This document shows positions 10,899 through 24,712 of a stretch of DNA of 63,603 nucleotides, piece after piece. Under the pieces are notes generated by a model. It was not told where the DNA came from. It was given only the letters and a program-made list of their open reading frames with translations, and did not search any database. The DNA comes from Paracoccaceae bacterium (GTDB taxonomy: Bacteria; Pseudomonadota; Alphaproteobacteria; Rhodobacterales; Rhodobacteraceae), in NCBI GenBank assembly GCA_030148745.1, contig JASBSV010000132.1:1-63603 (forward strand), written 5' to 3'. A program made the translations under genes and the position numbers. How positions within the stretch are numbered: the first letter of the stretch is position 1; each line of letters begins with the position of its first letter.

Positions 10899-11026
10899 GC
10901 GGGCAAACCGGGCCGCTTGGGCCAGAGGCGGGGCCTGATTTTTTGCTTTACTCAAAGGCGCGCGCCGGACCATCCTGAGCTCAGGGGCCCGCCCGGTGGG
11001 CTTTGCCGCTGGTTTGCGAGACGAAA

Positions 11027-12889
11027 ATGTCGGCCAGAAGCCACATTCAGGAGATCGACCGTGCGCTGCAGGGCCAGCACCTGGACCGCGACGAATATGT
11101 TGTGCAATCCTGGCGGCGCTGTGTGAACGATCACGGGCTTGATCCGCTCAGCGCCAAACCGGCCTATGTGGTCCCCGAGCGCGAGCTGCGCCGCCATCAG
11201 GAGCAGTCGGAAAAGCTGATCTCGATCGCGCGGTCGGGGCTTCAGCAGCTTTTTCAGCAGGTCGCGGGGCAGAATTACGTGGTTCTTCTTGCCGATACCG
11301 AAGGCGTGACCGTCGATTTCTTTGGCGACCGGAATTTCGAGGATACCCTGCGCGCCTCGGGGCTTCATATGGGCATAAACTGGTCCGAGCATGTCGCCGG
11401 TACCTGCGGTGTGGGCGCCTGCCTTGCCACCGGCGGCGCGGTCACGGTGCATCAGCAGGATCATTTCGACATAAAACACACTCAGCTCAGCTGCAGCGCG
11501 GCGCCGATATTCGACACATCCGGGCGGTTGACGGCGGTGCTTGATCTGTCGCTCTTGCGCGCGCCGCAACCCAAGGTCAGCCAGCGACTGGCGCTGCATC
11601 TGGTCAGGGCCTCGGCGCGGCGGATCGAGTTGGCCAATCTGATGGCTCTGATGCGGGACGAGTGGATCCTGCGTTTCTCGCAAATGCCGGAGTTTCTGGA
11701 TGTCGATCCCGAGGCGGCGATCGCGGTGAACGGATCGGGCCGCATCATCGCCGTTACGCGCGGCGCGGTCGAGATCCTGCGCACGGCGCGCCCGGGGCCG
11801 GTGGAACATGTGGTGATCGGCAACCGGCTTGAGGATTTCTTTGCGCTCAGCGTGGATGACCTGCCAACCCTGACCCCGGCGCGCCCGACAGAGGAGCGTG
11901 TTATTCATCTGTGCAATGGTGCGGCATTCTTTGGCCACGCAATCGCGCCGCAGCGCATAAGGAGCAGGCGCGGCGATATCGCCCCCGGCCTGCCGGCGCC
12001 GCTGCGCGGGCTCAGCGGCGGGGACGCGGCGATGCACCAGCTTTTGCACAAGGCCGAAAGGCTGGCGCGCGGGGCGATGTCGGTTCTGATCGCCGGGCCA
12101 AGCGGCAGTGGCAAGAACCATCTGGCCCGGGCGATCCATGAAACGCGCGCGCCGCAGGCGCCTTTCGTAACCGTGAACTGCGCCGATATGTCCGGCGGCG
12201 CCCTTGAGGCTGCGCTTTTCGGCACGCGCGCGGGGCAGCGGGGGCTGATTGATGCCGCGCGGGGCGGCACGCTGGTTCTCGATGAGGTCGGAGAAATGCC
12301 GCTGGCCACACAGGCGCGTCTGGCGCGGGTGCTCTTGGACAGCCAGATCATGGCGACCGGGCAGCGCAGCAAGGTGCTTATACCCACCAAGATCATATCG
12401 ATCACCGCGCATGATCTGCCCGCGCTGGTGGCAAAGGGGGCGTTTCGCGCCGATCTTCTGTTTCGCGTCGCCGCGGTTCAGCTTGACATGCCCGCCCTGC
12501 GCGCGCGCGGCGATCTGGACTGGCTGATCGACCGGCTGCTTCGGATCCGCACGATCAGCCTGCCCGATACTTATCAGCTGACGCCGGCGGCACGGATGGA
12601 ACTGCACCGCCGCGACTGGCCCGGCAATATTCGAGAGCTGATCAATACGCTTGATGTCGCGGTGGCGCTTGCGGCGGGGCGGGTGATCGATCTTGAGGAT
12701 CTGCCAGATCCGGTCCTGCGGGGCGGCGATGACGGCGCGGCCACACAAGGGGCGGCTGATGCCGGCGATCTGCGCGCGGTTCTGGCGATCTGCGGCTGGA
12801 ATGTTGCCCGCGCGGCGCGCCGTCTGGGGGTTGACCGCTCGACCGTGCACCGCCGGATGCGGCGTCAGGGGATCAGGCGCCCCGGCTGA
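11027..12889 (+). CDS. acoR: AcoR-type transcriptional activator lacking the GAFTGA loop
   Basis: 620 residues from the ATG at 11027 (a TTG at 11003 is in frame). A GAF-like sensory region spans about 50-200 (GINWSEHVAGTCGVGACLAT and CSAAPIFD are typical of AcoR), then an AAA+ domain with Walker A GPSGSGKN (357-364) and Walker B LVLDEVGEM, then a Fis-type helix-turn-helix at the C-terminus (NVARAARRLGVDRSTVHRRM). Between FGT (398-400) and RGGTLVLDE only about a dozen residues remain where sigma-54 activators carry the GAFTGA loop, so direct sigma-54 activation is unlikely. It sits directly upstream of the aco-like operon, with repeated TGCAACA palindromes between, and most likely controls it. 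Confidence 0.87.
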   Translation: MSARSHIQEIDRALQGQHLDRDEYVVQSWRRCVNDHGLDPLSAKPAYVVPERELRRHQEQSEKLISIARSGLQQLFQQVAGQNYVVLLADTEGVTVDFFGDRNFEDTLRASGLHMGINWSEHVAGTCGVGACLATGGAVTVHQQDHFDIKHTQLSCSAAPIFDTSGRLTAVLDLSLLRAPQPKVSQRLALHLVRASARRIELANLMALMRDEWILRFSQMPEFLDVDPEAAIAVNGSGRIIAVTRGAVEILRTARPGPVEHVVIGNRLEDFFALSVDDLPTLTPARPTEERVIHLCNGAAFFGHAIAPQRIRSRRGDIAPGLPAPLRGLSGGDAAMHQLLHKAERLARGAMSVLIAGPSGSGKNHLARAIHETRAPQAPFVTVNCADMSGGALEAALFGTRAGQRGLIDAARGGTLVLDEVGEMPLATQARLARVLLDSQIMATGQRSKVLIPTKIISITAHDLPALVAKGAFRADLLFRVAAVQLDMPALRARGDLDWLIDRLLRIRTISLPDTYQLTPAARMELHRRDWPGNIRELINTLDVAVALAAGRVIDLEDLPDPVLRGGDDGAATQGAADAGDLRAVLAICGWNVARAARRLGVDRSTVHRRMRRQGIRRPG

Positions 12890-12897
12890 CAGGCCGG

Positions 12898-12956
12898 TGC
12901 AACAGGCTGTTGCATGCTGTTGCACCCGCTTGCCCGGCTGCAACAGGTTTTGTGCA
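12898..12956. promoter_or_regulatory. Cluster of TGCAACA palindromes upstream of acoA (candidate AcoR operator)
   Basis: TGCAACAG-G-CTGTTGCA (12898-12914) is a perfect 17-base palindrome. CTGTTGCA recurs at 12917-12924 and TGCAACAG at 12939-12946, forming a second inverted pair with a 14-base spacer, and a partial half-site (TGTGCA) follows to 12956. The array starts 9 bases after the acoR stop and lies about 205-265 bases before acoA. Multiple symmetric sites of this kind suit cooperative binding of a Fis-type HTH dimer. No convincing sigma-54 (-24/-12) promoter was seen between here and acoA. Confidence 0.6.
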
Positions 12957-13161: not shown

Positions 13162-14154
13162 ATGGACCCGACGAAAGACCAGAAACTCTGGATGTACGAA
13201 AACATGGTGCTAAGCCGCAGGTTCGAGGAGCGGATTGAAAAGATCTATCTCGAAGGCAAGACACCCGCCTTTAACATGGCCGACGGCCCGATCCCCGGCG
13301 AGATGCATTTGTCCAACGGACAAGAGCCGGTCGCGGTGGGCGTCTGTGCCCATCTGACAGCAGAGGACGCGGTAACCGCAACCCATCGCCCGCACCATCA
13401 GGCGATTGCCAAAGGCGTTGACCTCAAAGCGATGGCAGCCGAGATTTTCGGCAAGGCCACAGGCCTGTCGGGCGGTCGCGGGGGGCATATGCATCTGTTC
13501 GATCCCTCTGTCAATTTTGCCTGCGCCGGCATCATCGCCCAGGGCTGCGGGCCGGCCTGTGGCACGGCCCTGTCGCGCAAGTTGCAAGGCAAGCCCGGCG
13601 TTGCAGTATCCTTTCTGGGCGAAGGGGCGGCCAATCAGGGCGCCTTTCACGAGGCGATGAACCTTGCTGCGCTTTGGAAGCTTCCGGTGATCTTTGTGAT
13701 CGAAGATAACGCCTGGGGCATTTCGGTCGCCAAAAGCGATGCCACATCCGTGCCACGCAATGATGTGCGCGCCGCCGGCTATGGAATACCCGGACATTAT
13801 ATCGAGGGGAACGACCCCTATGCGATCTTCGATGTGGCGGGTCAGGCCATTGCCCGCGCCCGCGCCGGCGAGGGGCCGACCCTGATCGAGGTGGAAACCT
13901 ACCGGCTTGCCGGTCATTTCATGGGCGATGCCGAACAATACCGTCCCAAGGGCGAAAAGGAGGCCCTTTTTGCGCGCGATCCGATCCCGGCGATGCGCGC
14001 AAGACTGATTGCCGATGGCGATGCGACCGAAAAGGATCTGGACCGGATCGAAGCCCGCGCCGCCGAAACGGTGGATGAGGCAATCCAATTTGCCCGTGAC
14101 AGCGCTCTGGCGCCCGAAACGGACGCTTTGACGGCCGTCTTTGCAACACAGTGA
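13162..14154 (+). CDS. acoA: Acetoin dehydrogenase E1 component, alpha subunit
   Basis: 330 residues from the ATG at 13162, which follows GGGAGA; the upstream in-frame extension is low-complexity and rejected. It is a thiamine-diphosphate-dependent E1 alpha of the acetoin/pyruvate dehydrogenase family. The ThDP/Mg motif runs from GEGAANQG to the N of VIEDN. Phospho-loop type sequence VPRNDVRAAGYGIPG is also present. With E1 beta it would cleave acetoin (or another 2-oxo or acyloin substrate) to acetaldehyde and an acetyl group transferred to a lipoyl domain. The AcoR-type regulator upstream and the short operon favour acetoin, but a different C4 substrate cannot be excluded. Confidence 0.85.
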   Translation: MDPTKDQKLWMYENMVLSRRFEERIEKIYLEGKTPAFNMADGPIPGEMHLSNGQEPVAVGVCAHLTAEDAVTATHRPHHQAIAKGVDLKAMAAEIFGKATGLSGGRGGHMHLFDPSVNFACAGIIAQGCGPACGTALSRKLQGKPGVAVSFLGEGAANQGAFHEAMNLAALWKLPVIFVIEDNAWGISVAKSDATSVPRNDVRAAGYGIPGHYIEGNDPYAIFDVAGQAIARARAGEGPTLIEVETYRLAGHFMGDAEQYRPKGEKEALFARDPIPAMRARLIADGDATEKDLDRIEARAAETVDEAIQFARDSALAPETDALTAVFATQ

Positions 14155-15256: not shown

Positions 15257-15490
15257 ATGACGACGGATGTGAAAATCGCCGAGGATTTATGGGACACAGA
15301 CAGCGAAGCGGTGATCACCGCATGGTTCGTGAAAGACGGAGGAAAGGTTGAAAAGGGCGCGCTTCTGGCCGAGGTGATGACCGAGAAAATTCAGCATGAG
15401 ATTAAATCCCCGGCTGAGGGCGCCGTGTCGATCCTTAAAAAGACAGATGAGATCGTGAAAAAGGGCGATGTGATCGCGCGCATCGAATGA
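15257..15490 (+). CDS. Stand-alone lipoyl carrier domain protein (E2 N-terminal part)
   Basis: 77 residues, a single biotinyl/lipoyl domain. The lipoylation site is K44 in MTEKIQHEIKSP, between the two halves of the usual beta-barrel (WFVKDGGKVEKG and DEIVKKGDVIARIE). The ATG at 15257 follows GGAAGAA. In ordinary E2 proteins this domain is fused to the peripheral-subunit-binding and catalytic domains; here it is a free protein whose stop overlaps the start of the catalytic-domain gene by 4 bases. It should shuttle acetyl groups from E1 to E2 and be reoxidised by an E3 encoded elsewhere. Confidence 0.88.
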   Translation: MTTDVKIAEDLWDTDSEAVITAWFVKDGGKVEKGALLAEVMTEKIQHEIKSPAEGAVSILKKTDEIVKKGDVIARIE

Positions 15491-16167
15491 CCGGCGAAAT
15501 AACCACCGTTCCCCTGCGCGGGGTGCGCGGGATGATCGCCGACAAGATGGTCAAAAGCCTGACCGAGGCGGCGCAGCTGACCCATCATGCGACCGCCGGG
15601 CTGAACGGGCTTGAGGCGCGCAAAGCCTGGCTTGCCGGGCAGGGGACCAAGGTTTCGGTCGAGGACCTGTTGATGGAGGCCGTAACCTCGGTCATCGCCC
15701 GCCATCGGGGTGTCAACGGCACGGTCGAAGGGCGCGAGATCCGCCTCTCGCGGCCTATTCATCTGAGCGTCGCGATGCAGATGCCCGGCGATCTGCTGGT
15801 TGCTCCGGCAATTTTCGATGCCCAGAACCTGGACGCCAAGGAACTGAGCCGGGCGCGCCACGATCTGGCCGCGCGGGCGAAAATCAACGGGCTGACAGCA
15901 TCAGAGATGACCGGCGGCACATTCACCATCAGCAATCTGGGGCTTAGCCGCGTGCATTATTTCACGCCCATTTTGAACGCGCCGCAGATTGCCATTCTTG
16001 GGGTGGGCTGCGCGCGCGAGAGGGCGGTCGCCACTCATGACGGTGTTGAGTTTCACCCCTTTATCGGCCTGTCCCTGACCTTTGATCATCGCGCTATTGA
16101 CGGTGCCCCGGCAGCGGCGTTTCTGAGCGATCTTTGCGAAACGGTCGAAGGGATGTCGGGTGATTGA
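15487..16167 (+). CDS. Stand-alone E2 acyltransferase catalytic domain
   Basis: 226 residues matching only the 2-oxoacid dehydrogenase acyltransferase catalytic domain. It starts at VPLRGVRGMIADKMVKSL, the usual domain beginning, and contains FTISNLGLSRVHYFTPILN and the active-site motif DHRAIDG near the C-terminus. No lipoyl domain or peripheral-subunit-binding domain is fused, so E3 docking must differ or be absent. It would transfer the acetyl group from the separate lipoyl carrier to CoA. It overlaps the carrier gene by 4 bases and the ligase gene by 8, so the parts are translationally coupled. Confidence 0.88.
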   Translation: MTGEITTVPLRGVRGMIADKMVKSLTEAAQLTHHATAGLNGLEARKAWLAGQGTKVSVEDLLMEAVTSVIARHRGVNGTVEGREIRLSRPIHLSVAMQMPGDLLVAPAIFDAQNLDAKELSRARHDLAARAKINGLTASEMTGGTFTISNLGLSRVHYFTPILNAPQIAILGVGCARERAVATHDGVEFHPFIGLSLTFDHRAIDGAPAAAFLSDLCETVEGMSGD

Positions 16168-16843
16168 ACAGATAGCAACCGCCACAGCGCTGCGGCGCGA
16201 GGCGGTTCTTCTTGAGGATGTCGCGCGCCATCCCGATCATTGTCATCTGTTCTTCTGGCAGGGCGCGCAATCGCTCGTGGCGCCCGAAAAGATCGGCCGC
16301 AACCCCGGGTTCGAGCGTGTAAGCGCCCGGCTCGGTCACGCCGGATGGCCGGTGCATCTGCGCAATACCGGCGGGGATGTCACACCGCAGGGGCCGGGTA
16401 TCGTCAATGTCACGCTGGTCTATGCCCTGCCGCCCGGCGCGGCCGATATCGCGGGCAGTTTTGAGCGTCTGTGCAGCCCGATCGAGCATGCGCTGGGCGA
16501 TGGTGCATCGCGCGGGCGCATTGCCGGGGCGTTTTGCGACGGCGCACATAACGTGCTGATCGGCGGGCGAAAGTTTGCCGGCACCGCGCAGCGTTTTCGC
16601 CGCTGTTACACTCAGCGTGATCGCTTTGCGGTTCTGGCCCATGCCCTGATGCTGATCGCGCCCGTGACCCAGGCGCCGATTACCGCGATCAACAGCTTTC
16701 TGCGCGAATTGGGAGAGCCGCGGGTGATCCGGCGCGAAGCTCATGGCGCTTTGCCCGCCGGATGCGCCCGCGATGAATTTCTGTCCCGGCTGATGCAGCG
16801 TTATCAGGAAATTTTACCTGCGACGGCTGCGGATCGGGGATGA
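16160..16843 (+). CDS. Lipoate-protein ligase family protein dedicated to the aco-like operon
   Basis: 227 residues from a GTG at 16160 that overlaps the E2 stop by 8 bases. It resembles the BPL/LplA/LipB fold: VAPEKIGRNPGFERVSARLG stands for the substrate-binding start, VHLRNTGGDVTPQGPGIVNV matches the RR-S/TGGGxVxHxxGnxN region of LplA, and FCDGAHNVLIGGRKFAGTAQ matches the (D)G.YD..V.G.KiaG(T/S)AQ lipoate/ATP site with the catalytic lysine (GGRKFAGTA). Its position points to attachment of lipoate to K44 of the free carrier two genes upstream. It may use scavenged lipoate or octanoate. Confidence 0.8.
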   Translation: MIEQIATATALRREAVLLEDVARHPDHCHLFFWQGAQSLVAPEKIGRNPGFERVSARLGHAGWPVHLRNTGGDVTPQGPGIVNVTLVYALPPGAADIAGSFERLCSPIEHALGDGASRGRIAGAFCDGAHNVLIGGRKFAGTAQRFRRCYTQRDRFAVLAHALMLIAPVTQAPITAINSFLRELGEPRVIRREAHGALPAGCARDEFLSRLMQRYQEILPATAADRG

Positions 16844-18074: not shown

Positions 18075-19738
<1,664 letters not shown>

Positions 19739-19742
<4 letters not shown>

Positions 19743-20539
19743 GTCATGCCTCCGGGTATTGGGGCCGCCGCGGCCAGGGATTTCAGGATTTTGTCCAGAA
19801 CCGGGCGCAGGCGCGCGGCCTTGTCTTCGTCATAGTCCCAGCCGCTGGTTTCGTCCCTCAGATAGGTCGACTGGGCCAGCTCCATCTGGATGGCGTGAAT
19901 GCCTCGTGCGGGATCGCCGTAATGCCGGGTGGTCCAGCCGCCTTTGAACCGCTGGTTTCTGACGGTGCTGAACCCGGGGGCCGAGCGGGCGATGTCAAAG
20001 ACCTTGAATTCCAGAGAGCGTGCGCAGCTTGCCCCGTCATTTGTGCCTATGTTGAAATCCGGCAGAACCCCGTCAAACAGATGCGGGATGCGCGAGCGGA
20101 TCGAGTGGCAGTCATAAAGGATCGCAAAACCGTGGATCGCTTTGACGCGCACCAGTTGTTCTGCAAGCGCCTTGTGATAGGGCGCGTGAAACCGCTCTAG
20201 CCTGCCACTGGTCGCCTCTGCGGCGGGTGGGCGGTTCCAGATCGGGGTGCCGTCGAAATCGGTCAGCGGGATAAGGTCGGTGGTGTTCTGCCCGGGATAG
20301 AGGCTGATCCCGCCGGGATCGCGATTGGCGTCGATGACATAGCGGTGAAAGCTGGCGCTGACGGTCGTTGCCTGATCAAGCAGCCCGTCATAAAGCCGGT
20401 CGATATGCCAGTCGGTATCCGACAGCTGCCGACCCCGCGCGTTAAGATCGCCGCGAATGTCATCGGGAACAAAGGTTCCCGCATGAGGAAAGCCCATAAC
20501 GACCGGCGAGCGGCCTTCGACAACCGTAACCGGGGTCAT
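19739..20539 (-). CDS. hutG: N-formylglutamate deformylase (HutG)
   Basis: 266 residues from the ATG at 20539, overlapping the hutH stop by 4 bases. It belongs to the N-formylglutamate amidohydrolase family: [29 protein letters not shown] and [13 protein letters not shown] are characteristic, and the His/Asp/Glu residues in these motifs should bind the catalytic metal. It hydrolyses N-formyl-L-glutamate to formate and glutamate, completing the pathway that runs through HutF. Presence of both hutF and hutG indicates the five-step histidine route, which releases formate rather than formamide. Confidence 0.95.
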
Positions 20540-22077
20540 TGGCCAGCCTCCGCGCAAAGTTCGGGCAGGGCAAAGCCATGGGTCAGCGCCCCCTGCGCCA
20601 CCAGGGCCGCCGCCGCCCGAATGTCGGGCGCCAGATAGCGGTCTTGCCCGACCCGCGCCACTTGCGCCCGCAGCCGGGTCATGACAGCGCTCAGATCATC
20701 GCTTGTCCTGAGGGGCGCGCGAAACTCGATCCCCTGAGCGGCGCAGATCGCTTCGATCCCCAGAATGGCGTGCAGGTTTTCATTCATCCGTTCCAGTCGG
20801 CGCGCAGCATGGGCGGCCATACTGACGTGGTCTTCCTGATTGGCCGAAGTTGGCGTGCTGTCGGTGGTGCAGGGATTGGCCAGGTGTTTGTTTTCACTCA
20901 TCAGGGCGGCGCTTGTTACCTCGGCGATCATCATGCCCGAGTTCAGGCCCGGATCGCTGGTCAGGAAGGGCGGCAGATCGAAGCTGAGCGTGGGGTCGAC
21001 CATCAGCGCCACGCGGCGCTGGGCAATGGCGCCGATCTCGGACAGGGCGATGGCGATCTGATCGGCGGCAAAGCCCACAGGCTCGGCATGGAAATTGCCG
21101 CCCGAGACGATCAGCCCCTGATCCACCAGAACCAAGGGATTGTCGGTCACCGCGTTTGCCTCGGTCTCTAGCGTGCGGCCGGCAAAACGCAAAAGATCCA
21201 GCGCCGCGCCGGTCACCTGCGGCTTGCAGCGGATGCAATAGGGGTCCTGAACCCGCGTATCGCCCTGCCGGTGGCTTTCGCGGATTTGCGAGCCGGCCAT
21301 CAGGGTGCGCTGCGCGCGGGCAACCTCGATTTGCCCGGCATGGCCGCGGAGCCGGTGGATTTCATCGTTCAGCGGTGCGGTTGATCCCATGATCGCATCG
21401 GTGGACAACGCCCCCGTTACAATCGCCGTTGTGGCATTGCGCCAGGCGGTAAAAAGCCCGGCCAGAGCACAGGCGGTCGAAAACTGCGTGCCGTTGATCA
21501 GCGCCAGCCCCTCTTTGGGACCCAGAGTGATCGGGCTGAGCCCCGCGGCCTTTAGCGCCGCCTCGCCCGGCATGATCTGGCCTTCAAACTCTGCCTCGCC
21601 CGCGCCGATCATTACCGCAGCCATATGAGCCAAGGGAGCCAGATCGCCCGACGCCCCGACCGAGCCCTTGTCGGGGATAACCGGCATGACGCCCGCGTTC
21701 AGCATCGATTGGATCAGCGCGACGGTACCCCACGCCACGCCAGAGGCGCCGCGCCCCAGCGACATCAGTTTCAGCGCCATCATCAGCCGGGTTGTGGGGC
21801 CGTCCAGCGCGTCCCCCACGCCGCAGCAATGCGACAGGATCAGGTTGCGTTGCAGGGTCTGGGTATCGCCCGGCGCGATCTTGACGCTGGCCAGTTTTCC
21901 AAAGCCGGTATTGACGCCATATATCGCATCCGCCCCTTCGGCGGCGCGGCGCACCAATTTCTCGGCAGCCTCAATCGCGGGGCGTGCGCCGGGATGAAGA
22001 TCAATCCGCTCCGTCCCGCGCCATATGGCTTCCAGCGCAGTTAGGCTGACATGGCCGGGGTCCAGCACGTGGCTCAC
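20536..22077 (-). CDS. hutH: Histidine ammonia-lyase
   Basis: 513 residues if it starts at the GTG at 22077, which overlaps the hutI stop by 4 bases as in the rest of this operon; an in-frame extension upstream is not family-like. The MIO prosthetic group forms from Ala-Ser-Gly at 142-144 ([11 protein letters not shown]). [11 protein letters not shown] and [20 protein letters not shown] are also typical. It deaminates L-histidine to urocanate and ammonia, the first step of the pathway. Cytoplasmic, normally a tetramer. Confidence 0.96.
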
Positions 22078-23267
22078 AGCGCGCCTCCGAAAATACGTTT
22101 GTAAAGCGGGTTCCAGCCGATCCGATAGGACAGCTCGGCAGGGTGGGCGGCGTCCCACACCGCCAGATCGGCGCGATAGCCCGGGCGGATCTGCCCCCTG
22201 TCGCTGAGGCCCAGCGCGCGCGCGGCGTGGCGCGTGACGCCCTCAAGCGCCTCTTGCGGGGTCATGCGTAACAGGGTGCAGCCCATGTTCATCGCCAGCA
22301 AAAGAGAGGCCAGCGGCGATGAGCCGGGGTTGCAATCGGTGGCCAGCGCCATTGCTACCCCATGGCTGCGAAAGGCATCGACCGGCGGCGCCTGTGTCTC
22401 ACCAAGGGTGTAAAACGCGCCCGGCAGCAACACCGCGACGGTGCCAGCCGCGGCCATCTGGGCCGCGTCGGCCTCTGCGGCGTATTCAAGGTGGTCGGCC
22501 GAAAGGGCGCCAAACCGGGCCGCCAGCGCCGCGCCGCCGCCATGGCCCAGCTGTTCGGCATGAAGTTTGACCGGCAGGCCCAGATCGGCAGCGCATTGCA
22601 TCACCCGGGCGATCTGATCGCGGTCAAAGGCGATGTCTTCGCAAAACCCATCCACCGCATCGACCAGCCCTTCGGCGGTGGCGGCGCGCAGGGTAGGCAG
22701 GCAGACCGTGTCGATATAGGCGTCGGGCTTGCCTGCAAATTCCGGCGGCACGGCATGAGCACCCAGAAAGCTGGTTTTGATCGTCACCGGCCGCTGCGTT
22801 TCAATCCGGCGCGCCACGCGCAGCATCTTCAGCTCGGTTTCCTGATCAAGCCCATAGCCCGATTTGACTTCGATCGTCCCAACGCCCTGGGCAATCATCG
22901 CATCCACGCGCGTCAAAGCATCGGTAAGGAGCTGTTCGGCGCTGGCGCGGCGGGTTTCGGTGACAGTCGACAGTATCCCGCCACCGGCGCGCGCGATTTG
23001 CTGATAGCTGGCGCCGTTCAGCCGCGCTTCGAACTCGCCCGCGCGGTCGCCGCCATAGACGAGATGCGTGTGGCAATCGATCAGCGCCGGCGTAACCAGC
23101 CGTCCGGCCAGATCGATATCGTCAAGCTGGTGGTGCTCGGACGGCAGGGCGTCAAGCGGGCCGGCCCAGCGGATCCTCTCGCCCTCAAGCACTACGGCGC
23201 CATCGGGCACGAGCCTGTCCTTGGCCCCGGGCTGCATCGTGACGAGAGTTGCGTTTTTCAGAAGCAT
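22074..23267 (-). CDS. hutI: Imidazolonepropionase
   Basis: 397 residues from the ATG at 23267; an in-frame extension to 23321 runs through the intergenic operator region and is rejected. It is an amidohydrolase-superfamily enzyme with the metal motif [12 protein letters not shown] and the second-metal segments [12 protein letters not shown] and [12 protein letters not shown]. It hydrolyses 4-imidazolone-5-propionate to N-formimino-L-glutamate. It is the first gene of the leftward hut operon, divergent from hutF across 77 bases. Confidence 0.96.
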
Positions 23268-23308
23268 CCGCCGACTCACCCTCTTGTTAAACTCGATCTC
23301 ATATGTTT

Positions 23309-23322
23309 TATGTATGCACATA
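23309..23322. promoter_or_regulatory. Candidate HutC operator between hutI and hutF
   Basis: TATGT-ATGC-ACATA at 23309-23322 has perfect 5-base inverted arms around a 4-base centre, in the AT-rich 77-base gap shared by the divergent hutI and hutF promoters. HutC repressors of the GntR/HutC subfamily bind symmetric TGTATxTACA-like sites, and hutC is encoded in the same cluster. Urocanate would be the expected inducer. Confidence 0.5.
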
Positions 23323-23344
23323 ATAATCTGTCAAGACGAGCTTC

Positions 23345-24712
23345 ATGATGACTGTGATTTGGGCGGAGCGGGCGTTGACCGCGGGCGGCTGGCGCGATGA
23401 TGTGGCGGTCACGATTGAAAGCGATGGGCGGATCGGTGCTGTTTCGATCGGTGCCGCGCCCTGCGGTCACAGGGTCGGCTGTTTGTTGCCGGCGCCTGCC
23501 AACGCCCATTCACATGCGTTTCAGCGCGCCATGGCCGGTCTGACCGAGGGGAGCGGCCCAGGTGGCCGCGACAGTTTCTGGACCTGGCGTGAGCTGATGT
23601 TCAGATTTCTCGACCGGCTGGACCCTGATCAGCTTCAGGCAATCGCGGCCTTTGTTCAGATGGAAATGCTCGAGGCAGGCTATGCCGTGAATGTCGAGTT
23701 TCACTACCTGCATCATCGCCCCGGTGGCGGCGCTTATGACAATCTCGCCGAGATGTCGGAGCGCATCATCGCGGCCTGTGACCAATCGGGGGGCGGCCTG
23801 ACGCTTTTGCCGGTTCTTTACCAATATGGCGGCTGCGATGGCCGACCGCTGGGCCCCGGGCAGCAGAGGTTTGGCAATGATCTTGAGCAATTTGCGAAGC
23901 TTGCCGGGATGGCGCGCAGCGCGCTGCGGTTTCTGCCCGCTGATGCCGGCTTTGGCGTTGCGCCGCACAGCCTGAGGGCCGTGGCGGCGGCCGACCTGCC
24001 ACAAATGCCCGCGCTGGCCGGCGGCGGGGTGGTTCACATGCATCTGGCCGAGCAGCTTGCCGAGGTTGCCGAGGTCGAGGCGCATCTGGGCGCGCGCCCG
24101 GTGCAATGGGCGCTGAACAATCTGGAGCTTGGTCCGCGCTGGTGCCTGATCCACTGCACCCAGATGCAGCCAGATGAGACAACGGCTCTGGCCACGACCG
24201 GGGCGGTTGCGGGGCTTTGCCCGATAACCGAGGCCAGTCTGGGCGACGGCATATTCGATGGGCGGCGCTGGCTTGATGCGGGGGGGCGCTTTGCCATCGG
24301 CTCGGACAGTAATATCCGCGTCTCACTGGCCGAAGAGTTGCGGACGCTGGAATATAGTCAGCGGTTGCGCGATCATGCGCGCGCGGTGCTTGCCGCGCCC
24401 GAATGCTCGACCGGACGACAGATTTTTCAGGCCGCCTGCGAGGGCGGGGCGCGCGCCGCCGGGCGCGAAAGCGGTGTGATTGCCGCCGGCAAATGGGCCG
24501 ACCTGTTGGCGCTTGATCTGACGCATGTCGATCTTGCCGGGCGTGATGGCGACGGGGTACTGGACAGCTATATCTTTGCCGGGGATGACCGGATGATCAC
24601 CGATGTCTGGTCGGCGGGGCGGCATATGGTGCGCCGCGGCCGCCATATCGAACGCGAGGCGATCACGCGCGCCTATCGCGACGCGGTGCAAAAATTGAGG
24701 GAGCTGGCGTGA
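23345..24712 (+). CDS. hutF: Formimidoylglutamate deiminase
   Basis: 455 residues; a second ATG one codon on is equally possible. It is an amidohydrolase-superfamily member with metal ligands in PAPANAHSHAFQRAM, a conserved His in VHMHLAEQ, HCTQM, and Asp in AIGSDSNIRVSL. It removes ammonia from N-formimino-L-glutamate to give N-formyl-L-glutamate, which HutG then hydrolyses. It is divergent from hutI and overlaps the hutC start by 4 bases. Confidence 0.95.
   Translation: MMTVIWAERALTAGGWRDDVAVTIESDGRIGAVSIGAAPCGHRVGCLLPAPANAHSHAFQRAMAGLTEGSGPGGRDSFWTWRELMFRFLDRLDPDQLQAIAAFVQMEMLEAGYAVNVEFHYLHHRPGGGAYDNLAEMSERIIAACDQSGGGLTLLPVLYQYGGCDGRPLGPGQQRFGNDLEQFAKLAGMARSALRFLPADAGFGVAPHSLRAVAAADLPQMPALAGGGVVHMHLAEQLAEVAEVEAHLGARPVQWALNNLELGPRWCLIHCTQMQPDETTALATTGAVAGLCPITEASLGDGIFDGRRWLDAGGRFAIGSDSNIRVSLAEELRTLEYSQRLRDHARAVLAAPECSTGRQIFQAACEGGARAAGRESGVIAAGKWADLLALDLTHVDLAGRDGDGVLDSYIFAGDDRMITDVWSAGRHMVRRGRHIEREAITRAYRDAVQKLRELA

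Follow-up and report, generated by a model that had tools for sequence, protein, structure and literature searches.

In the textbook account, dehydrogenases of the 2-oxoacid type depend on lipoyl domains that are tethered within giant particles. The acetoin dehydrogenase complex (AcoA-AcoB-AcoC-AcoL) and the other 2-oxoacid dehydrogenases share with the locus examined here E1-alpha and E1-beta, an E2-type lipoyl domain, an E2 fold with the HRxxDG motif and an AcoR-like regulator; in contrast, this locus encodes E2 as separate proteins, has no peripheral-subunit-binding domain (PSBD), anchor or E3 gene, and some of its relatives lack any E2 domain. Actinobacterial AceF/OdhA likewise has E2 reduced to trimers and lipoyl groups supplied in trans to the active sites of another enzyme, although the lipoyl domains of AceF stay on the chain and its trimeric state results from an insertion, whereas in the present system E2 simply lacks the anchor residues and the carrier is a protein of its own. 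Small free lipoyl carriers are also known: the H protein of glycine cleavage resembles the present carrier in working principle only, and LbpA is, likewise, a free lipoyl protein co-encoded with its own attachment enzymes, the dedicated sLpl(AB) ligases, although it is GcvH-like and serves sulfur oxidation, whereas our carrier has an E2-type lipoyl domain and adjoins E1. Finally, the LipL of Firmicutes serves tethered dehydrogenases, whereas the transferase described below is encoded with a free carrier. Full-text searches of the openly licensed literature found no description of the split cassette. We read it, at a probability of about 0.6, as an acetoin-type dehydrogenase whose parts are untethered, with a free carrier, a LipL-like transferase dedicated to it and a shared E3; for this system we infer the substrate, the chemistry, the trimer, the sharing of E3 and the diffusion of the carrier.

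Layout, distribution and context of the cassette

The DNA studied (the window) is the stretch of 63,603 nucleotides from Paracoccaceae bacterium at positions 1-63,603 of contig JASBSV010000132.1 (assembly GCA_030148745.1). On one strand between 11003 and 16843 it carries genes for an AcoR-like activator, E1-alpha, E1-beta, a lipoyl protein, an E2 catalytic domain (E2cat) and an LplA-B_cat protein (Table 1), the start codon of E1-alpha having been picked through homology and an upstream purine-rich stretch. The initial annotation had claimed that E2 is divided into a 77-residue lipoyl protein and a 226-residue catalytic domain and that the genes are coupled by 4- and 8-base overlaps; reading frames and Pfam agree on the division, with the 2-oxoacid_dh match of the window E2 spanning profile positions 3-226 of 232, and the overlaps are exact (ATGA at 15487-15490, and 16160-16167). 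Its statement that the operon lacks an E3 was likewise borne out, since a genome-wide TIGR01350 search gave no match on this contig; the single Lpd above the TIGR01350 cut-off lies outside it. An E3 hidden in the cassette was considered and rejected, an Lpd-like open reading frame (40% identity) lying within just 1 of the 80 best loci of 135 (described below). Gene content, the split, the lack of a PSBD and an E3 and the conservation of catalytic residues are established at the level of sequence. Downstream of the cassette, at 18075-24712, lie histidine-utilisation-like genes, mostly on the opposite strand, which look like the urocanase, histidine ammonia-lyase and imidazolonepropionase types.

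Table 1. Coordinates in the window of the cassette genes, key residues and upstream repeats
Feature	Position	Strand	Evidence
AcoR-like sigma-54-dependent activator (GAF, AAA+, Fis-type HTH)	11003..12889	+	Pfam GAF 3.1e-10, Sigma54_activat 9.7e-38, HTH_8 6.9e-9
Two overlapping inverted repeats TGCAACAG/CTGTTGCA	12898..12946		Repeat search; candidate activator-binding sites
E1-alpha, 330 aa from ATG 13162	13162..14154	+	Pfam E1_dh 2.1e-68
E1-beta, 338 aa	14173..15189	+	Pfam Transket_pyr 1.9e-39, Transketolase_C 6.8e-37
Free lipoyl carrier, 77 aa; K44 = 15386-15388	15257..15490	+	Pfam Biotin_lipoyl 4e-14
Free E2 acyltransferase catalytic domain, 226 aa; H201/D205 motif	15487..16167	+	Pfam 2-oxoacid_dh 7.2e-55
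Putative LipL-like lipoyl/octanoyl transferase, 227 aa, GTG start	16160..16843	+	Pfam LplA-B_cat 1.2e-15
Transferase residues C126; K138	16535-16537; 16571-16573	+	Invariant, 46 rows

Relatives were collected by scanning named genomes with a carrier alignment, using search patterns built from alphaproteobacterial carriers; this gave 135, and the analysis went on with the best 80. Among these best 80 of 135, the five-gene cassette is complete in 67 loci, the E2 domain alone is missing in 9, and the other 4 lack other members, with a contig end explaining at least some of these. Record titles of the 80 name Rhodobacterales, Sphingomonadales, Hyphomicrobiales, Pseudomonas, Marinobacterium, Halomonas and others. 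The window E1-beta is 80-88% identical in relatives that carry the cassette. Within the order of the window, 16 of 196 genomes hold relatives of the LplA-fold protein, and 13 of these 16 sit in E1-bearing cassettes: 8 with an E2 domain (the window included), 4 without and 1 internally deleted. At one locus (L045 in genome G064), pieces of E1-alpha and E2cat lie in one frame with the intervening genes gone, through either a natural deletion or an assembly fault. Across 398 genomes sampled from the whole phylum, the carrier profile matched in 42, with just 6 matches at 86 bits or more and the remainder below 50 bits and mostly inside long open frames; the cassette is accordingly widespread yet uncommon. 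Split E2s also occur in more distant relatives, on plasmids of Rhodococcus opacus, where lipA takes the place of an adjoining LplA-fold gene, and of the haloarchaeon Natrialba magadii, which has no adjoining LplA-fold gene either, and Haladaptatus salinisoli has E1 and carrier with no E2 gene beside them.

Upstream of E1-alpha, the perfect palindrome of the TGCAACAG/CTGTTGCA repeats occurs once in the window, against 0.20 expected when up to 2 mismatches are allowed, and the repeats were not found in exact form in other loci. Lying between regulator and E1-alpha, they are likely candidate activator-binding sites. A search for sigma-54 promoters upstream of E1-alpha gave best sites of 8/12, a score equalled at about 237 places in the window. 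AcoR-like activator homologues adjoin the cassettes of several relatives.

Gene context suggests that the cassette encodes an acetoin-type dehydrogenase. A gene lying between E1-alpha and E1-beta in one scanned locus has (R,R)-butanediol dehydrogenase as its best solved relative (6ie0, 4.7e-86), and the cluster resembling this enzyme recurs in 8 of the best 80 of 135 loci, being absent inside the window cassette. A genuine minority possibility is that E1 acts on a different alpha-hydroxyketone or on a 2-oxoacid and that the cassette is an acyl-carrier module, portable between the various catabolic clusters it serves. Consistent with this, neighbours vary among the best 80 of 135: a GMC oxidoreductase cluster is found in 44, after the cassette in many relatives (L110 and L092, for example), a VOC cluster in 18 and an acetamidase/formamidase-like cluster in 4, and a Sphingomonas plasmid carries its copy among genes for a ring-hydroxylating dioxygenase and maleylacetoacetate isomerase, which belong to aromatic degradation. 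The activator that adjoins the window cassette and the eight loci with the butanediol-dehydrogenase-like gene speak, however, for the acetoin-type assignment. These neighbour clusters were annotated through one representative each (two for cluster 7); cluster 0, present in 45 of the best 80 of 135, is called 'sigma-54 regulator' by resemblance to annotated neighbours. A Tat-signal-like protein, whose representative had no Pfam match at the threshold used, often accompanies the GMC oxidoreductase (34 of the best 80 of 135).

The lipoyl-attachment enzyme

The initial annotation gave the carrier its own lipoate ligase. Membership of the LplA-B_cat fold family was upheld, and the assigned reaction is probably wrong, since the protein has no accessory domain and resembles LipL-type enzymes. 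Pfam gives only the catalytic domain on the 227-residue chain, with no LplA accessory (LplB) domain, and the predicted structure (pLDDT 95) leaves no room for a second domain. When a profile of 13 homologues was used, the best solved structures were 2p5i (BH3822; 1e-16), which we take to be LipL, and 2p0l (1.5e-13), deposited as lipoate-protein ligase A, while the best lipoate-protein ligase of two-domain size was 5ij6 (9.1e-5). Comparison of the predicted structure gave Z 21.5 with 2p5i (rmsd 2.8, 212 residues aligned) and 21.1 with 2p0l, followed by Z 20.0 with Thermoplasma LplA and 15.1 with E. coli LplA. LplA-type chains thus follow closely, and the margin (Z 19-20 against 21.5) is a modest one that tempers the LipL reading.

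Residues C126 and K138 are invariant in all 46 aligned homologues (chosen sequences), and the Cys-Lys motif is present in 78 of the 79 homologues of the named loci (best 80 of 135), the exception (L116) keeping both Cys and Lys and differing after the lysine. C126 aligns with a Cys of both 2p5i and 2p0l; a Cys at this position is presumably the LipL nucleophile, and it precedes the lysine by 12 residues in the window transferase and in BH3822 alike. Among the same 46 chosen sequences, the LipL model NF053589 matches every one, weakly, and the LplA large-subunit model matches 10. Across the 196 genomes of the order, LipL-model matches occur in 15, all within the 16 that hold relatives of the window transferase, and none exceeds the cut-off; the window transferase itself scores 34.4 bits against a curated cut-off of 400. 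With scores so far under the cut-off, it is not a called LipL. In sum, the LipL of Firmicutes (NF053589; 2p5i) has in common with it a single catalytic domain, a Cys 12 residues ahead of the Lys and the closest structure and profile, whereas the window protein is about 19% identical, falls far under the curated cut-offs and is proteobacterial.

LipL relays lipoyl groups from GcvH, and the human relay enzyme LIPT1 works via an acyl-enzyme, according to passages of a review by Cronan (PMC7253636), which also calls assigning function from sequence in the LplA/LipL family perilous. In view of this caution, we put the chance that the attachment enzyme is a LipL-type cysteine transferase, as the residues above suggest, at roughly two in three. 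The genome encodes GcvH, LipA and a LipB-fold protein, and so holds the donors and the synthase that this reading needs. The transferase is not always tied to a free carrier, as three genomes (G053, G079 and G178; loci L031, L042 and L046) have it without any.

We consider it unlikely that this protein instead attaches lipoate to the carrier as an ATP-dependent ligase, either lacking an accessory domain altogether or working with a separate LplB encoded elsewhere. The LplA-B_cat fold and the conserved lysine would suit such an enzyme, and a passage of PMC6067878 (eLife 2018) describes a single-domain LplA-like protein of sulfur oxidisers that ligates its own carriers. Against it, the closest structures and profile matches are of LipL type, the invariant Cys is aligned to that of BH3822, and the genome (87% complete) gave no PF21948 protein beyond the window transferase and the LipB-fold protein.

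The carrier and the catalytic domain as separate proteins

The carrier had been likened to the glycine cleavage H protein, a comparison that stands for the principle of a small free lipoyl carrier and fails for the family: Biotin_lipoyl and Biotin_lipoyl_2 are its sole Pfam matches, with no match to GCV_H, so that GcvH membership is ruled out and the protein belongs to the E2 lipoyl family. Membership in LbpA is excluded as well, because the 77-residue chain contains no Cys; a passage of PMC6067878 gives two conserved cysteines as the mark of LbpA in the sHdr system. K44 is invariant across 10 aligned carriers, that of the window among them. Ahead of this lysine, the best 80 of 135 loci have A, E or Q and never D, an outcome in part imposed by the search itself, since one of its two patterns called for A or E at that place; the E2p and E2o of the same genome have TDK at the lipoyl lysine, and the Rhodococcus carrier has DK.

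The claim that the acyltransferase has no PSBD also held, as the Pfam scan of the window E2 shows PF00198 only. E3_binding was found in 0 of 39 aligned E2cat homologues (chosen sequences), whereas the E2p and E2o of the genome, used as positive controls, display lipoyl, E3_binding and catalytic domains in a like scan. The HRxxDG motif (D or N) is present in 69 of 71 free E2cats (from the best 80 of 135), the others being L084 and L103, and the predicted structure (pLDDT 93.6) has the canonical E2 fold, matching 9j1w at Z 30.5 (rmsd 1.6, 220 residues aligned). Its alignment ends at residue 633 of the A. vinelandii protein (1dpb) and at residue 626 of E. coli E2p (4n72), chains that presumably extend a few residues further. 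Past the glycine of the motif, the tail is 20 residues long in the window E2cat and 17-22 in 68 of the 69 free E2cats with the motif (from the best 80 of 135), with 31 in the other; full-length E2s have tails of 22 or 24 residues in every case (23 rows, 14 genomes), ending NPxxML-like or DPRRLLM/L. Although the single free tails of 22 and 31 residues weaken an argument from length, these hydrophobic endings are absent from the free E2cats. A passage of PMC10415282 describes a C-terminal 3-10 helix as the knob joining trimers, with E2p trimeric where the helix is displaced. The window protein therefore has the catalytic domain of a classical E2 and, judged by its residues, neither a lipoyl domain on the chain nor a PSBD nor an anchor. 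Since free E2cats lack the C-terminal hydrophobic anchor of the cage-forming E2s, a trimer is expected, and the window E2cat is probably a simple bare trimer.

In nine of the best 80 of 135 loci the E2 domain is missing, so acetyl transfer by an E2cat gene is not essential in every version of the cassette. Thioclava atlantica is among the E2-less strains. On an E1-beta tree of 81 rows the 'no E2' label needs two changes, one sufficing in 0 of 200 bootstrap trees, and the window falls in a 12-row clade (100/100) together with the nine E2-less loci, adjoining them. The idea that E2 had merely relocated was rejected: searches of four E2-less genomes in full found no free E2 domain elsewhere, and E2s only in frames of full-length size. 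Median dN/dS was 0.09 for E1-alpha, 0.05 for E1-beta, 0.14 for the carrier and 0.26 for the transferase in eight of the nine E2-less loci (L136 was omitted, its E1-beta being identical to that of L135), and 0.09, 0.06, 0.11 and 0.37 in eight chosen E2-bearing loci, many saturated pairs having been dropped. E1, carrier and transferase of the E2-less loci are under purifying selection and are maintained without a dedicated acyltransferase. The simplest guess is that E2p acts there in trans as acyl acceptor. Upstream of E1-alpha, four E2-less loci (L134, L146, L153 and L156) carry a gene of the acetamidase/formamidase family.

In all 71 E2-bearing loci (from the best 80 of 135) carrier and E2cat are separate genes, with no fusion, and their junction is often an ATGA-type 4-base overlap. 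Such tight coupling in many loci favours co-assembly, and would fit a scheme in which the lipoyl protein and E2cat bind E1 by way of other surfaces, in place of a PSBD, and so rebuild a stable complex of classical kind, the split being only genetic; that actinobacterial OdhA unites E1o and E2o in a single hexamer, as a passage of PMC10415282 describes, would fit it too. We nevertheless think this scheme improbable, given a 77-residue carrier without linker or docking domain, an E2cat without PSBD or anchor, and the loss of E2cat where E1, carrier and transferase remain under purifying selection. That a sequencing error, an objection foreseen by the initial annotation, or pseudogenisation broke a single E2 gene in two can be dismissed with near certainty, because the split is conserved in all 71 loci, in several different frame relations, and the window junction has no slippery heptamer nearby. 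The same absence of a heptamer and the varying frame relation of the two genes also exclude a fusion by programmed frameshifting.

Proposed mechanism and significance

Because E2 is split, devoid of a PSBD and conserved in that form across many genera, an enzyme of the attachment family is co-encoded and no E3 lies in the operon, this locus is most naturally read as a non-classical system whose carrier is free; on these points the interpretation of the initial annotation is supported, whereas its 'lipoate ligase' is not. In the untethered system that we favour, E1 (alpha2beta2) would cleave the substrate and reductively acylate the free 77-residue lipoyl protein, and the acyl-dihydrolipoyl carrier would diffuse, or dock weakly, to the free E2cat, which would pass the acyl group to CoA. 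A housekeeping dihydrolipoamide dehydrogenase would then reoxidise the reduced carrier. The carrier would be charged by its dedicated cysteine transferase of LipL-like type, whose donor is probably lipoyl- or octanoyl-GcvH (or ACP), with no ATP-dependent ligase.

More tentatively, the carrier may be an independent 'ACP-like' module for thiamine-dependent C-C cleavage, with a core of E1, carrier and LipL-type transferase. E2 would then be an optional client lost in at least two lineages, and the acyl group would go to housekeeping E2p in trans or to a different enzyme.

Collectively, what is probably new here is an untethered system of E1, E2 and carrier, with what is likely a dedicated LipL-like transferase and an E2 that is dispensable in some lineages. 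A passage of PMC10332631 assigns to Proteobacteria LipB only, never LipM, and suggests that other bacteria may have amidotransferases as yet unknown; the known routes of lipoate assembly would be extended if a proteobacterial carrier has a LipL-like enzyme of its own. Moreover, a natural and widely distributed untethered version of these dehydrogenases would provide a direct test of the need for tethering and large size.
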